Of a stretch of DNA of 64,000 bases, positions 11,220 to 19,963 are shown piece after piece. The notes under the pieces were generated by a model, which saw only the letters and a program-made list of their open reading frames with translations, did no database searches and was not told the origin of the DNA. The position numbers were made by a program, and so were the translations under genes. The stretch's first letter is position 1; every line of letters starts with the position of its first letter. This DNA comes from a virus: the IMG/VR virus record IMGVR_UViG_3300045283_000397, positions 1 through 64,000 of that record, one strand, 5' to 3'.

Positions 11220-12245
11220 TTATTCCTCTCCTAGGGGTCCATTCTTACCTTGTGCCTTACGCGCGGCCCATTGGGCCTTGGCGCGTTGGCGAGCCGCTTC
11301 TACATATTCTGGAGTGCGACAGGCAGCGCGGATGTTCTGATTTTTCTCTGGAACTGGTTCCAGTTTCCTTATTCTTCTCTCTTCTGCCCGGCGCGCGGAT
11401 ATCTCGGCACTTTGACGCCGCAAACGGGCCAGAAATCTCTCCCGATACTCCGGGTCATTTTCCATTTTCTCAGCCGCCTTAAGGGAAGCGGCCTTGGCTT
11501 GACGGCCCAAGCGCTCGTCACGCACGGCCCTTTTCTCGGGGTCATCTATACAAATCTGGCGCGCCTTATCGGAGGCAGCTTTCAACCAGCCGCGCTTACG
11601 TTCCTGGTATTCCATGTCCTCGTGCCAGCGCCGATGAGCCTTGGATACGTTATTCAACACAATGGCTCTTAACTCTGCCGCCCGCACCGGGTCATTCCAC
11701 TGCTCATGCGCAATAGCTATGGCGGTTAAGGCTTGGGCTACCCCGGCTGCGCGCTTAACCGGATCGTTCCAGCGTGCTTCGCGTTTGCGCTGCAAGTTAG
11801 CTCGATATTCGGGATCTTCTTTCCATTTACGGCGCGTAGACGCATGTGCCAACGGTAGCAAGAAAGCAATACGCTCAGCGCGCTCTTGTTCAGACAGATC
11901 GGCCCAGCGCGCCTTCATAACCGCCGACATATACGGGCTCGTGATCGCAAGAGACTTATGCGGAAGCAAAAGATTATAGCCGAATTCCCTAAGGTGAGAT
12001 TGCTTTTCTTCTATCCAATACAGTTCTCTAATCCATCGCAACTTAGCATCGCATTCTTCGATAAAGTCCCAAAGGAAATTTTCCTGACCGTATTTGTTCC
12101 ACGCATTTTGAAAATGTCGATTGCCATGCACTCCGCGTTCTAAACTCAATATGTGAGATTTTATACGGCCCAGTTTATTTAATGTAGAACCAATGTAGTG
12201 CTTATTGTTGATGGCGTTCCGCGCGGAATAAATGAAGGCTCGCAT
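11220..12245 (-). CDS. GIY-YIG homing endonuclease (free-standing)
   Basis: The 341-residue protein begins MRAFIYSARNAINNKHYIGS; FIY...HYIGS is the GIY-YIG catalytic pair, and IKSHILSLERGVHGNRHFQN supplies the expected Arg/His helix, with the catalytic Glu region near EECDAKLRWIRELYWIEEKQ. The rest is a repetitive Arg/Lys/Glu helical DNA-binding tail (KAHRRWHEDMEYQ, KMENDPEYRERFLARLRRQS). It lies just downstream of the last capsid exon and not inside an intron. A phage-type promoter (12270-12298) and SD GGGAGG precede it. Confidence 0.92.
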   Translation of the reverse strand: MRAFIYSARNAINNKHYIGSTLNKLGRIKSHILSLERGVHGNRHFQNAWNKYGQENFLWDFIEECDAKLRWIRELYWIEEKQSHLREFGYNLLLPHKSLAITSPYMSAVMKARWADLSEQERAERIAFLLPLAHASTRRKWKEDPEYRANLQRKREARWNDPVKRAAGVAQALTAIAIAHEQWNDPVRAAELRAIVLNNVSKAHRRWHEDMEYQERKRGWLKAASDKARQICIDDPEKRAVRDERLGRQAKAASLKAAEKMENDPEYRERFLARLRRQSAEISARRAEERRIRKLEPVPEKNQNIRAACRTPEYVEAARQRAKAQWAARKAQGKNGPLGEE

Positions 12246-12254
12246 TTGGGTTCC

Positions 12255-12292
12255 TCCCCCGAGGAAAAGAGCATAACTCCTTCCTCGGGGGA
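12255..12292. repeat. 12-bp perfect inverted repeat (hairpin) after capsid gene
   Basis: Bases 12255-12266 and 12281-12292 are perfect reverse complements with a 14-nt loop. The stem overlaps the spacer and -10 box of the promoter for the GIY-YIG gene, and its minus-strand 3' arm abuts that gene's SD. It could act as a processing or attenuating hairpin on capsid read-through RNA and also occlude the endonuclease SD. No T-run follows, so a classic terminator is unlikely. Confidence 0.6.
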
Positions 12293-12298
12293 AGTAAA
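12270..12298 (-). promoter_or_regulatory. Sigma70-like phage promoter for the GIY-YIG gene
   Basis: On the minus strand, TTTACT (12293-12298) is followed by a 17-nt spacer and TATGCT (12270-12275). The start CTTTACTTCCCCC is identical to that of the promoter at 38607. It would fire about 18 nt before the endonuclease ATG, giving the homing gene its own transcription. Confidence 0.6.
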
Positions 12299-12311
12299 GG
12301 CTGGGCTGGTC

Positions 12312-15300
12312 TTAAGCTGTTAAGACACCTTGCAGAAAGGCGTTGCTTAACGTCATATTTCCTGCCCACCCAATAAGCCTGCAATTTGTTTAACTACCAG
12401 AGTTTTAAATCTGGCTTCTCCCTGTCACCAGGGAGTTCGGACTATATCTTCACCCCTTGCGGGGGCCGGGCACTCGTGGGTGCATTATTGTTGGGACTCA
12501 GCACCTAGTCTCTACGCCTTCTGCCGAACCTTGTGGCCCTCGGCAGCTTGGCACGGGATTGTCTCTTGCGAGAGGTTCCCCGTTTAACCCGGTTTAGCTA
12601 TGTGTTTGTTACCAAACACCCATGACCAAGCTAATTAAACGATCATGGCGTCTTGATTGACTGAAAATCTGTCAGGGTCAAGCGGACGATTTGTTATTTG
12701 TCCCTGGCTCTTTATCCAAGGCGCCTGCGCGTTGCCGCGCAGATCGGACTATATCTTCAGGCTTGCCAACCGTATGGAGCAACTCGCTGCTTTCCAGCAT
12801 TAAGTTGAACCATTGATCAAACCAAGTCTGTCGGGCGCTCGTGGGCCGATTATCGTTGGAACTCACGGCCTAGTCTCTACGCCTTCCGCCGAACCCTTGT
12901 GGTCCTCGGCGGCTTGGCACGGTATTGTCTCTTGCGAGGGTTTCACCGTATTCACCCAATTGTCTAATGCAGCGTTGCCACTGCACGAGGCTCTGCTCGA
13001 ACCATGTTGCGCCTGGAGTGAGGTCTCCAGTGCAAGTAACGAGTGTTAAGCATATACATAGTGGTGCTGGGTGCACCGCCCACCGCCGACGTAGACGAAG
13101 ACAGCTGGGGCGGCAGCGGGTCGGCGGCGAAGCCCTGGAAGCCGCCGTCGAGCACCACGTCGGCGTTGAGGTACTTGAGGGATTGGAATCCGGCCTCGGC
13201 CATGTCCGGGGCCGCATTCTCGGTCTGGATGCGCTGGATCGCTTGCAGCGCATTCAGGTAATACTTGTACATCACGTTGTCAGCGATGATCAAGTCCGGG
13301 TAGTCGCGCCCGCGGATGAGCGTGACCCAGAGCGAGTCCATCTGCTGGAGGATGGTCGAGCTGGAAAGCACTGCCCCGCCGTTGGTGGCGGCGGACCAGG
13401 ACTGGTTCTGCCAGAAGGACCACTGCGAGCGATCGATGCCGCCGACAGTGCCGCTAGTCGGCGTGGCGGCGACGAGGAGTTGCAGTCCGCCGACGGAGTT
13501 GGTCACGGTTCCGTCGCCGTAGATGCCCTGGGAGAGGCCGTTCATGAAGGTATCCTCTGCGTTCATGATTCGGCTCTCAAGGAGATCTATGATTGCCTCC
13601 TCTCCGCTATTTTGCAACTCTTCCAATCCGCTGATGCTAACGGCGACTGCCGCTTGGCGAATTGGATATTCGGCTGCGGTAAATACCTGAGAGGGAGCGA
13701 TGTTCAACGTCTGGTAGCCGCTGTCAATTATTTGTTAGTGCGCTGGCTTTTTATCCGGCGCTCCTGCACGTTGCCGCGCAGATCAGCACATATCTTCGGT
13801 TTATTAGCTACCGTCGGGCGCTCGTGGGCGGATTATCGTTGGGTCTCACCGCCTGTGCGTTACACCTTCCGCAGCACCTAACGCCCGCTACGGCTCGGCT
13901 CGGTATTGTCCCCGTTTATTGGGGAGATTCACCGAATTCACCCGATTAAGTGGCACAGCAAATATTTGCTAACCACTGGAAGGTTTGATTGTCCGCATAA
14001 TTAAGCTCCTGGACGATCGTCCTTCCGCCTCCGAATGTTTTGCAGTTTTGTTACCCCTGCGCATTAGCCGGGGGACTAACTTATCAGTTAGCCTCTGCGC
14101 GTTGCCGCGCAGCTCGGAGCACATCTTCCCTTCCGGGGCTGGTCCATGCTCTCTACACGCGCCAGGGCCTGTAAGCCCAGCTTGGCTCGGTATTGCCCGC
14201 GTGGGGCTTCCACCGAATTCACCAGCATCCCACCACGCCCTTGTACTGCGCGGCGGCCCCCTAATTAGAGGTTGCCCTTGCGGGTCAGTCGGAGTAGTGC
14301 AGCGTTGTTGCGCTTTTGTTATCGCGCGGGCTTTTTATCCCGCGCATCAATGACTTCATTTTCGCCATTGCTCAGACTATCTTATTAAGCCGACGTAATT
14401 CACGGGCTCTGCGCTTACCTTCGCTTATCTTTCTACCATGGTCTGCGGGCACGCCATTGCGCCAACGACCTGCGGTGCGCGAAGCTTCTATGCCAGCTCG
14501 GGTGGCTTCTTTGGTGAAATCGAAGGAAATCTTGTACGTGTTATAGAGCAAGCCCTTTTCCTCGTACACCTTCATCCACCTTAATTCAGCCGCGCGTTTT
14601 TGAGGCGCCGTTGGGTATAACTCCCCCAGATCCTCCAAGAGGATCATTTTAAACGCCTGCTCGCCATAGCGAACCCAATCTTTCTGAAGTTCCGGTTCAG
14701 CGTGCCCGCCAGCTCTTAGCGTGCACCTATGTTCACGAAACCTCTTCGCGATCAAGCTAGCTATTGTTTTATTATATTTACGCTGGGCTGTTTTTCTGCC
14801 ACCAGTGCAACCAACATAGACTTTATTCGTGATCGTATTCAAAAGTCCGTAAACTACTGCCATTCGGGATCCCCCTCTCTGGCTAGACGACTTACTGGGC
14901 GCTCGTGGCGGGGTTATTCTTTCGTCACCCGCTAGTCGTTACACCCACCATAGCCCTGAAGCTTACCTCGCCTCGTAGGCGAAATAAAGGCTTTACGTCT
15001 ATGGCTCGGCTCGGTGTTGGCGTCTCAGCGTCCACCGAATTCACCCAGTTTTACATGAGCCGCATTCAACTCATGTTGTCAGCCAACTCGCCCGTGCGAT
15101 TTCTGAGCGTGGTGGTGACAATTTCGGAGCAGTCTTTGTTACACCCCCAGTCAGGGGCGGCCCGCTAGGGGCTCTGCATGTCCCCATGCAGCTCGGAGCA
15201 CCTCACGCCTTCCGGCGACGGCCCATGCTCTCTACACGCGCCAGAGCCCTTGTGGAGCTCAGCTTGGCTCGGGATTGCCCGTTCTGGGCTTCCCCCGACT

Positions 15301-15370
15301 TCGCCGTCATCCCGGCGCACCCTTTTAGCTGCGCGCCGGCCCTCTCCGCAAGAAGGTTCGGGAAAGCCAT
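12312..15370 (-). CDS. Major capsid protein, split into seven exons by six group I introns
   Basis: Minus-strand exons are 15370-15351, 15129-15069, 14312-14269, 14042-13972, 13724-13001, 12686-12639 and 12381-12312. Joined, they give 1038 nt and 345 residues with no frame break. The start ATG (15368-15370) has SD AAAGGAGG. Junction residues restore the pattern of podovirus HK97-fold capsid proteins: MAFPNLL+SEIVTTTLRNR, ADNMS+RNNAALL, KGNL+KTFGGG, FQW-Y-SGYQTLNIAPS, RRNMV+PLDPDRF, AMIV+RLIGWAGN. The C-terminus is LSNAFLQGVLTA. Scaffold and portal genes lie upstream, as usual. Expression of capsid therefore depends on six splicing events. Without joining, only the 247-residue main-exon fragment would be seen. 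Confidence 0.94.
12382..12638 (-). ncRNA. Group I intron 6 of the capsid gene (257 nt, no ORF)
   Basis: The intron follows ATCGT of exon 6 and ends with G before CAGGCTTATT of exon 7. Core landmarks on the minus strand are CAATCCCGTGCCAAGC (P4 region), GTAGAGACTAGG (P7 5' strand) and GAAGATATAGTCC (P3/P7 3' strand), so P7 is GACTA/TAGTC. P1 is supported by CCAUGA of the exon pairing with UCAUGG inside the intron, with a terminal U.G pair possible. It closely resembles intron 5. Confidence 0.93.
12687..13000 (-). ncRNA. Group I intron 5 of the capsid gene (314 nt, no ORF)
   Basis: It starts after ATGGT of exon 5 and ends in G before TCCGCTTGAC. Core elements are CAATACCGTGCCAAGC, GTAGAGACTAGG and GAAGATATAGTCCG, the P7 pair again being GACTA/TAGTC, followed by a GC hairpin (CTGCGCGGCAACGCGCAG). 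Splicing restores N-M-V-P-L-D. The extra length lies in peripheral sequence with no ORF of note. Confidence 0.93.
13725..13971 (-). ncRNA. Group I intron 4 of the capsid gene (247 nt, no ORF)
   Basis: It interrupts the codon for Tyr in W-Y-S-G-Y: the 5' exon ends TGGT, the intron ends in G, and the 3' exon starts ACAGC. P1 is a clear 6-bp helix, AGUGGU of the exon with GCCACU in the intron, placing a U.G wobble at the splice site as required. P7 is GCACA/TGTGC, different from introns 5 and 6 but still paired, which is covariation. Confidence 0.94.
14043..14268 (-). ncRNA. Group I intron 3 of the capsid gene (226 nt, no ORF)
   Basis: It begins after GGCAACCT of exon 3 and ends in G before CAAAACATTC. 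P7 is GAGCA (plus-strand positions 14147-14151) with TGCTC (14117-14121). P4-type CAATACCGAGCCAAGC is present. Splicing restores G-N-L-K-T-F. It is strikingly similar to intron 1 over its whole length, including the 5' GGGCCG..GCGCGCAG segment, which suggests intron duplication. Confidence 0.92.
14313..15068 (-). ncRNA. Group I intron 2 of the capsid gene (756 nt, carries GIY-YIG ORF)
   Basis: It starts after ATGAGT of exon 2 and ends in G before CGCAACAACG. P1 is a perfect 8-bp helix, ACAUGAGU of the exon with GCUCAUGU in the intron, with U.G at the splice site. P7 is CGACT/AGTCG. The ribozyme core lies at about 14,880-15,060 and the endonuclease ORF (14372-14863) occupies the 3' half. Splicing gives M-S-R-N-N-A. 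It is the only capsid intron with a homing gene. Confidence 0.94.
14372..14863 (-). CDS. Intron-encoded GIY-YIG homing endonuclease
   Basis: This 163-residue ORF lies inside capsid intron 2. It starts MAVVYGLLNTITNKVYVGCT: VYG...VYVG is the GIY-YIG pair. RFREHRCTLRAGG gives the conserved Arg/His helix. LLEDLGE with AAELRWMKVYEEKGLLYNTY gives the downstream catalytic Glu region. The C-terminal RKISEGKRRARELRRLNKIV is a basic NUMOD-like tail. GAGAGGGGG precedes the ATG as an SD. It would mobilise intron 2 into intron-less capsid alleles. Confidence 0.92.
   Translation of the reverse strand: MAVVYGLLNTITNKVYVGCTGGRKTAQRKYNKTIASLIAKRFREHRCTLRAGGHAEPELQKDWVRYGEQAFKMILLEDLGELYPTAPQKRAAELRWMKVYEEKGLLYNTYKISFDFTKEATRAGIEASRTAGRWRNGVPADHGRKISEGKRRARELRRLNKIV
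15130..15350 (-). ncRNA. Group I intron 1 of the capsid gene (221 nt, no ORF)
   Basis: It lies after only 20 nt of coding sequence (exon 1 ends CCTTCT) and ends in G before CTCCGAAATT. P7 is GAGCA (plus-strand 15226-15230) with TGCTC (15196-15200). CAATCCCGAGCCAAGC marks P4. At 221 nt it is close to the minimal size of natural group I ribozymes. Splicing restores L-L-S-E-I-V. The exact 5' splice base is inferred from phase and the following capsid consensus. Confidence 0.9.
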
Positions 15371-19688: not shown

Positions 19689-19963
19689 CAAGCCATCTCT
19701 TTATCCTGAGCCATAGCTTCGCGCATAGCAATACATGCATTCTCAACGCGAGATTCAAACAAATCCACAATATCCCTGGCATCCTGCAATCGCTCTTTCC
19801 CCGAAAAAGTCACGGCTATCGCTCTGCGCTTCATGGGCATTTTCCGATTGACCACCAGAAAAGCTTCATCGTCGGGCACCCAATATCCCTCGCAAGTTTC
19901 ACCAAATTTTGCGCGGATATAGCGCAAAGCCATTTCACGGCCCAAATCTTCCAATATACTCAT
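19688..19963 (-). CDS. Hypothetical protein, 91 aa
   Basis: ATG at 19961-19963 with SD GGGAGGAAG. Product MSILEDLGREMALRYIRAKF, with EGYWVPDDEAFLVVNRKMPM and a helical C-terminus. Soluble; unknown function. Confidence 0.68.
   Translation of the reverse strand: MSILEDLGREMALRYIRAKFGETCEGYWVPDDEAFLVVNRKMPMKRRAIAVTFSGKERLQDARDIVDLFESRVENACIAMREAMAQDKEMA

Follow-up and report, generated by a model that had tools for sequence, protein, structure and literature searches.

A tailed-phage major capsid gene predicted to contain six group I introns

Strong selection for compact genes is generally assumed for phages, and most descriptions of their group I introns concern genes of DNA and nucleotide metabolism. 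In published phage genes the number of group I introns reaches three (PMC11878797 and its references). Here we analyse a capsid gene located on the minus strand of a 64,000-nucleotide (nt) stretch of viral DNA (positions 1 to 64,000 of the IMG/VR virus record IMGVR_UViG_3300045283_000397; hereafter the window). It is very probably a major capsid gene, the sole one found in this tailed-phage genome, into which six group I introns have been inserted. The initial annotation of the locus had called six such introns in a virion structural gene exceptional. In the open-access literature no phage gene was found with six or more group I introns, but multi-intron capsid genes are known (PMC7886860, PMC6247863), and the gene is a record-holding case of a kind already described in phages.

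Division of a phage major capsid gene into several pieces is also known from the crAss-like Zeta group, where the capsid gene of cMAG OLRF01000054 consists of five open reading frame (ORF) fragments with four insertions (Yutin et al. 2021, PMC7886860). That group has up to 14 introns in many genes, whereas the six introns of the window (nine in relatives) are confined to the capsid gene. The major capsid gene of Faustovirus E12 shares many introns and tiny exons with the gene described here; it contains 12 introns, five of group I and seven spliceosome-like, two introns carry GIY-YIG genes, and the virus is a giant amoeba virus, unrelated in virus and host (PMC6247863). A probable group I intron lies in the major capsid gene of the Cluster J mycobacteriophage LittleE, for which splicing was shown by reverse transcription PCR, but it is the only intron in that gene (PMC3706429). 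Bastillevirinae and Twort phages possess genes that contain two or three introns of group I, some with exon skipping, although these are mostly DNA polymerase and terminase genes with no more than three introns per gene (PMC11878797 and its references). Jug phage genomes are rich in short group I introns, many of them without endonuclease genes; there, however, about 18 introns per genome are distributed over many genes, with terL in 2-3 fragments (PMC12363816).

The exons of the capsid gene (15370-12312) were placed with a splice-aware protein-to-DNA aligner written for this analysis, using the intron-free L003 allele as query. As had been annotated, seven exons join in phase to give a single open reading frame, which has 343 codons plus the stop codon:

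15354..15370, minus strand: capsid exon 1, 17 nt (intron-free alleles and spliced alignment)
15069..15129, minus strand: capsid exon 2, 61 nt (joined frame, spliced alignment and intron-free alleles)
14269..14312, minus strand: capsid exon 3, 44 nt (joined frame, spliced alignment and intron-free alleles)
13972..14042, minus strand: capsid exon 4, 71 nt (joined frame, spliced alignment and intron-free alleles)
13001..13724, minus strand: capsid exon 5, 724 nt (joined frame and spliced alignment)
12642..12686, minus strand: capsid exon 6, 45 nt (intron-free alleles and spliced alignment)
12312..12381, minus strand: capsid exon 7, 70 nt including the stop codon (joined frame, spliced alignment and intron-free alleles)

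Exons 2-5 and 7 had the annotated lengths, but exon 1 was 17 nt instead of 20 (ending at 15354) and exon 6 was 45 nt instead of 48 (ending at 12642). The longer forms were rejected because in both cases the extra codon has no counterpart in the intron-free alleles. The product has 343 residues rather than the annotated 345, the two extra residues being absent from all intron-free homologues, and is of the same length as the proteins of the intron-free alleles. The junctions are fixed because about 25 relatives have this capsid gene free of introns, and all of the predicted junctions match those genes after the two 3-nt corrections. Introns 1-5 were recovered at identical coordinates with three intron-free phage queries of unrelated source (Bradyrhizobium phage ppBjS10J-1, Myxococcus phage Mx8 and Stenotrophomonas phage BUCT555), and intron 6 with two of the three, Mx8 shifting it by 7 nt.

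The capsid identity proposed before was borne out, since the joined protein matched PHROG 9953 (major head protein) with an E-value of 5e-108 over its full length (residues 1-343). It is 46% identical to the major virion protein of Mx8, and a portal protein and a large terminase subunit are also encoded in the window, as judged by PHROGs. When an HK97 fold was looked for, no sequence match to the capsid protein was obtained in the PDB, and an AlphaFold2 model built from 16 close sequences was discarded (pLDDT 32). Against the closest relatives (88-89% identical DNA) the dN/dS of the joined frame was 0.07-0.08, and it was 0.064 when the small exons alone were counted. Judged by these ratios, the capsid gene is under purifying selection as joined.

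The introns represent 66% of the span of the gene, in agreement with the two thirds estimated earlier, and were assigned as follows from Rfam, profile and comparative-structure analyses, the families and alignments being those explained below:

15130..15353, minus strand: intron 1, 224 nt, predicted group I of family B, no P7.1 (A1 covariation; family-A profile E 2e-7)
14313..15068, minus strand: intron 2, 756 nt, predicted group I with P7.1 and an endonuclease gene inside (8-bp P1 with U.G; family-A profile E 3e-22)
14043..14268, minus strand: intron 3, 226 nt, predicted group I of family B (A1 covariation; family-A profile E 1e-11)
13725..13971, minus strand: intron 4, 247 nt, predicted group I of family A (RF00028 32.2 bits, E 2e-5, below gathering; A2 covariation)
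12687..13000, minus strand: intron 5, 314 nt, predicted group I of family A (RF00028 65.9 bits)
12382..12641, minus strand: intron 6, 260 nt, predicted group I of family A (RF00028 63.8 bits)

The Rfam covariance search, which had been proposed as a check, therefore supported the annotation in part: introns 5 and 6 exceeded the gathering score of RF00028 and intron 4 fell below it, and introns 1-3 were missed. Matches to mir-3075, HIV_FS2, group II and RNase P models were under their cut-offs and were considered chance. The family-A nucleotide profile was built from 27 introns, with introns 1-3 not among them. Two structural alignments of introns from the window virus and its relatives were made, A1 with 15 family-B introns (including introns 1 and 3) and A2 with 27 family-A introns (including introns 4, 5 and 6). 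In both of them the crossing helices P3 and P7 were paired in 100% of cells, with compensatory changes in each helix. Over all counted helices, 97.2% of cells were paired in A1 and 99.1% in A2, and both sides had changed, in at least one sequence, in 24 of 40 pairs and 24 of 29 pairs, respectively. Shuffles never attained these percentages, and slid structures dropped to 30-42%. The six P7-type pairs were found as annotated, and P7 covaries in A1 and A2. The subgroup IA helix P7.1, between P7 and P3, was present in introns 2, 4, 5 and 6 (read by eye in intron 2) and in A2 was 98.3% paired with compensatory changes. A1 leaves no space for it, and introns 1 and 3, which do not have it, are classed as group I with no subgroup. 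Membership of intron 2 comes from the profile and from its P7, CGACT/AGTCG. Introns 1-3 are placed in group I because of their profile similarity, the U.G pair in P1 and the covariation across 42 related introns; all six introns are thus predicted to be group I.

The annotated splice-site signature was also found, each 5' site following a U and each intron ending in G. This U|G signature was present in all 56 curated introns of the window virus and its relatives, although the aligner awards U and G a small bonus; the joins are also constrained by the reading frame and by the intron-free alleles. With the corrected ends of exons 1 and 6, the U.G pair lies inside P1 in all six introns. The helices of introns 2 (ACAUGAGU/GCUCAUGU, 8 bp) and 4 (AGUGGU/GCCACU) were exactly those annotated. 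The helix continues beyond the splice site in introns 1 (CCU|UCUU/GAGAGGG), 3 (CCU|CUA/UAGGGG) and 5 (GGU|UC/GAGCC), and intron 6 has CCAUGAU|CG/UGGUCAUGG. Over the 56 introns, P1 pairing at the splice sites was stronger than at the remaining U positions of these genes (Kolmogorov-Smirnov p 9e-10).

The exons, junctions, ribozyme cores and purifying selection are read from the sequence itself; the transcript and splicing steps are what we infer from them. A late transcript of about 3 kb would be made, in which each intron would fold, bind guanosine in P7 and be cleaved behind the U that forms the U.G pair of P1; ligation of the exons would yield a 1,032-nt message for the 343-residue head protein. 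It is unlikely, while deserving some weight, that only some of the introns are removed constitutively, with partial or alternative splicing giving several capsid isoforms or a delayed capsid supply. Exon skipping between phage group I introns has been published (PMC11878797), and skipping of the 45-nt exon 6, whose flanking introns 5 and 6 are 85% identical over 126 nt, would keep the frame. However, exon 6 encodes conserved residues (codons 306-320 are mostly invariant), and the lengths of exons 2, 3 and 4 are not divisible by three, which means that the frame would be lost if a single one of them were skipped.

This capsid is represented in IMG/VR by about 50 loci. The close relatives are mostly intron-free at every junction, and 11 viruses, including that of the window, bear introns. 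The capsid gene has nine introns in L032, nine plus a 51-nt stump in L034, six in the window and in L038, five in L023 and L036, four in L027, L033 and L042, and two in L035 and in the partial L031. This gives 56 curated introns at 28 sites, with a maximum of nine per gene; the counts omit codons 127-164 of L042 and the 51-nt insert of L034. A few further introns are contributed by L241 and L238. Introns predicted in the distant relatives L040, L045-L049, L052 and L053 were alignment noise and were excluded, and the single large introns predicted in L028 and L029 disappeared with a better query.

These relatives make it very improbable that the interrupted gene is an assembly artefact, stitched from several viruses or from repeated intron sequence. 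The contigs are metagenomic, and an intron likeness of 78-85% within one gene can mislead assemblers; the stump of L034 or the 37 codons lost in L042 could be errors of this sort. However, all exons of the window are in phase in one intact frame, L032, which comes from an independent metagenome, has introns 1, 2, 5 and 6 at identical sites with 91-97% sequence identity (intron 1 91%, intron 2 92%), and the same architecture was found in eleven contigs from several metagenomes. As separate observations, the insert of L034 (L034:5037-5087) is at the site of intron 2, has an intron-like start and end and adds an in-frame stop; it is either the remnant of an intron deletion or an assembly collapse. 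In L042 (L042:6067-6615) there is an intron at codon 127, followed by the absence of capsid codons 128-164 (37 codons), which are replaced by a small coiled-coil-like ORF (MADDEVVEMMKSL...).

A dead capsid gene, overrun by selfish introns while a working copy exists elsewhere in the genome, is equally hard to sustain. The heavy intron load and the in-frame stop of L034 as assembled would suit it, but the window exons are free of stops and frameshifts and dN/dS is low both in the joined frame (0.07) and in the small exons. Moreover, no other full-length capsid gene was present in the 90.5-kb record, the best candidate being a weak match of 43 residues. Insertions of another kind (group II, archaeal-type or spliceosomal-like), for which only the three introns lacking an Rfam group I match could speak, can be practically dismissed given the crossing P3/P7 covariation in both families, the U before and G ending every intron, the two over-threshold Rfam group I matches and the lack of any group II match above threshold, and are already refuted for introns 4-6.

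The earlier interpretation of the locus as a capsid gene with six group I introns was supported by the checks that could be computed, and the behaviour of the introns was analysed beyond it. The exon DNA of the window, L027 and L032 is only 11-12% apart, yet their intron sets are widely different, and this points to a fast turnover. Introns 1 and 3 are 78% identical over 174 nt, which together with the 85% likeness of introns 5 and 6 indicates that introns have colonised further positions in this gene. When a tree was made from the spliced genes, the intron-bearing viruses formed at least two separate groups amid intron-free ones. At codon 64 the window (13725-13971) and L027 and L032 (L032:5372-5699) carry different introns (P7 GCACA/TGTGC versus GACTA/TAGTC), and therefore this site was colonised or replaced more than once. 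No intron sites were found in codons 128-287, where random sampling of U positions leads to an expectation of about 16 of 31. This is the least conserved stretch of the protein (84% versus 93-95%), and the simplest reading is that introns settle where the target DNA is conserved; outside it, conservation at intron sites did not exceed that at other U positions (p 0.19). More distant capsids (L255, L304, L305 and L242; 31-57% identical) are interrupted in the position that corresponds to intron 2, or adjacent to it, by introns of about 730 nt in the first three and 291 nt in L242.

Two putative endonuclease genes accompany the introns of the window:

14372..14863, minus strand: GIY-YIG homing endonuclease ORF within intron 2, 163 residues (PHROGs homing endonuclease/GIY-YIG)
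11220..12245, minus strand: free-standing GIY-YIG gene, 341 residues (PF01541 E 3e-7; PHROGs E 4e-18)

The ORF of intron 2 matched PHROGs with E-values of 5e-7 to 3e-3 and had no match in Pfam, and the intron ORFs of relatives match PF01541. The free-standing gene starts 66 nt past the capsid stop codon. Introns of relatives at other sites also contain GIY-YIG or HNH genes, and in several relatives a gene of either type lies 70-110 nt behind the capsid gene. Two of the latter are intron-free, L005 (6938-7300) and L010 (6945-7130), with the gene located about 110 nt behind. Since five of the six window introns lack an ORF, the neighbouring free-standing endonuclease would probably help them in trans. 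As mobile elements, the introns would maintain and increase themselves: enzymes of the GIY-YIG or HNH type, encoded in some introns or right behind the capsid gene, would cut intron-free alleles, into which the intron would then be copied, and introns would additionally reach new sites within the same gene.

The distribution of these introns outside this capsid gene was also examined. Neither family profile had a match outside the capsid gene across the 90.5-kb record (profiled as the window plus two further stretches). By Rfam, the full contigs of ten intron-bearing relatives had group I introns only within the capsid gene, and those of seven intron-free relatives had none. A gene-blind scan of IMG/VR, using two 14-base pieces of the intron cores followed by a family-profile filter, retrieved at least 52 loci, whose host genes were named through PHROGs or near-identity to a tested locus. 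At least 13 belong to this family of capsid genes, the identity falling to about 31% (two being contigs already in the set), and at least 13 others adjoin major head protein genes of at least five unrelated families (phrog_283, 334, 1328, 3437 and 267). Among the matches listed, one locus adjoins a head decoration gene, another a tail tape-measure gene, and no named host gene belongs to DNA metabolism. Rfam confirmed group I introns at five of seven scanned loci of this set (L207, L288, L249, L230 and L272), with no group I match above cut-off for L233 and L218. In an isolate, Vibrio phage 1.232.O, the matching intron is likewise next to the capsid gene. Control introns of isolated phages (nrdD and terminase genes) scored 43-64 bits with the same profile, versus 75-194 for most of the retrieved introns. 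The nrdD-type introns of T4-like phages (Tequatrovirus) gave a blastn match to the intron core (E 1e-4), but they lie in a different gene and scored 44 bits against the family-A profile, compared with 75-194 for most introns from capsid genes of other phages. The intron family appears to favour capsid genes. Whether it represents a distinct group I lineage with a specialisation for tailed-phage major capsid genes, moving to dozens of sites within one gene and between capsid genes of unrelated families with the aid of endonuclease genes docked within or right behind the capsid gene, and having its home in the most highly expressed late gene instead of in DNA metabolism genes, is an evenly balanced question.

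Several points weigh against the interpretation offered here. P1 is short in introns 1, 3 and 5, with 3 bp on the exon side, and taken singly only intron 2 is clearly distinct from other U positions; these add to the Rfam search, in which introns 1-3 were without a group I match. Splicing of each intron is predicted from DNA, and mobilisation by GIY-YIG/HNH endonucleases is likewise deduced. In the gene-blind scan, 24 of the 52 listed host genes could not be named, and the sample is that defined by two 14-base patterns.

According to this analysis, the gene for the most abundant virion protein would be two-thirds ribozyme, with up to nine introns in relatives and exons down to 17 nt. Such genes escape both Rfam and the usual gene callers, and many metagenomic viral capsids may for this reason be called fragmented or absent. 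The allele series, with zero to nine introns, makes the cost of intron load and the routes to new sites testable, and also allows intron endonucleases to be tested as weapons between co-infecting phages, a role shown for phage PhiPA3 (PMC11620839).

Other observations concern the surroundings of the capsid gene. A genome scan for the host gave one distant match, in a contig of an Opitutaceae metagenome-assembled genome. A strong hairpin (CCCCCGAGGAA ... TTCCTCGGGGG; 12250-12300) lies in the gap that separates the stop codon of the capsid gene from the endonuclease gene behind it, with no T run after the hairpin. Upstream of the capsid gene, at a distance of 4.3 kb, a 91-residue ORF was found on the minus strand (19691-19963); its residues 43-86 resemble capsid residues ~82-127 (39% identity, E 9e-6), and it may be either a small head protein or a duplicate of part of the capsid. 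A similar ORF is present in L037 (5326-5580), likewise upstream of the capsid gene.

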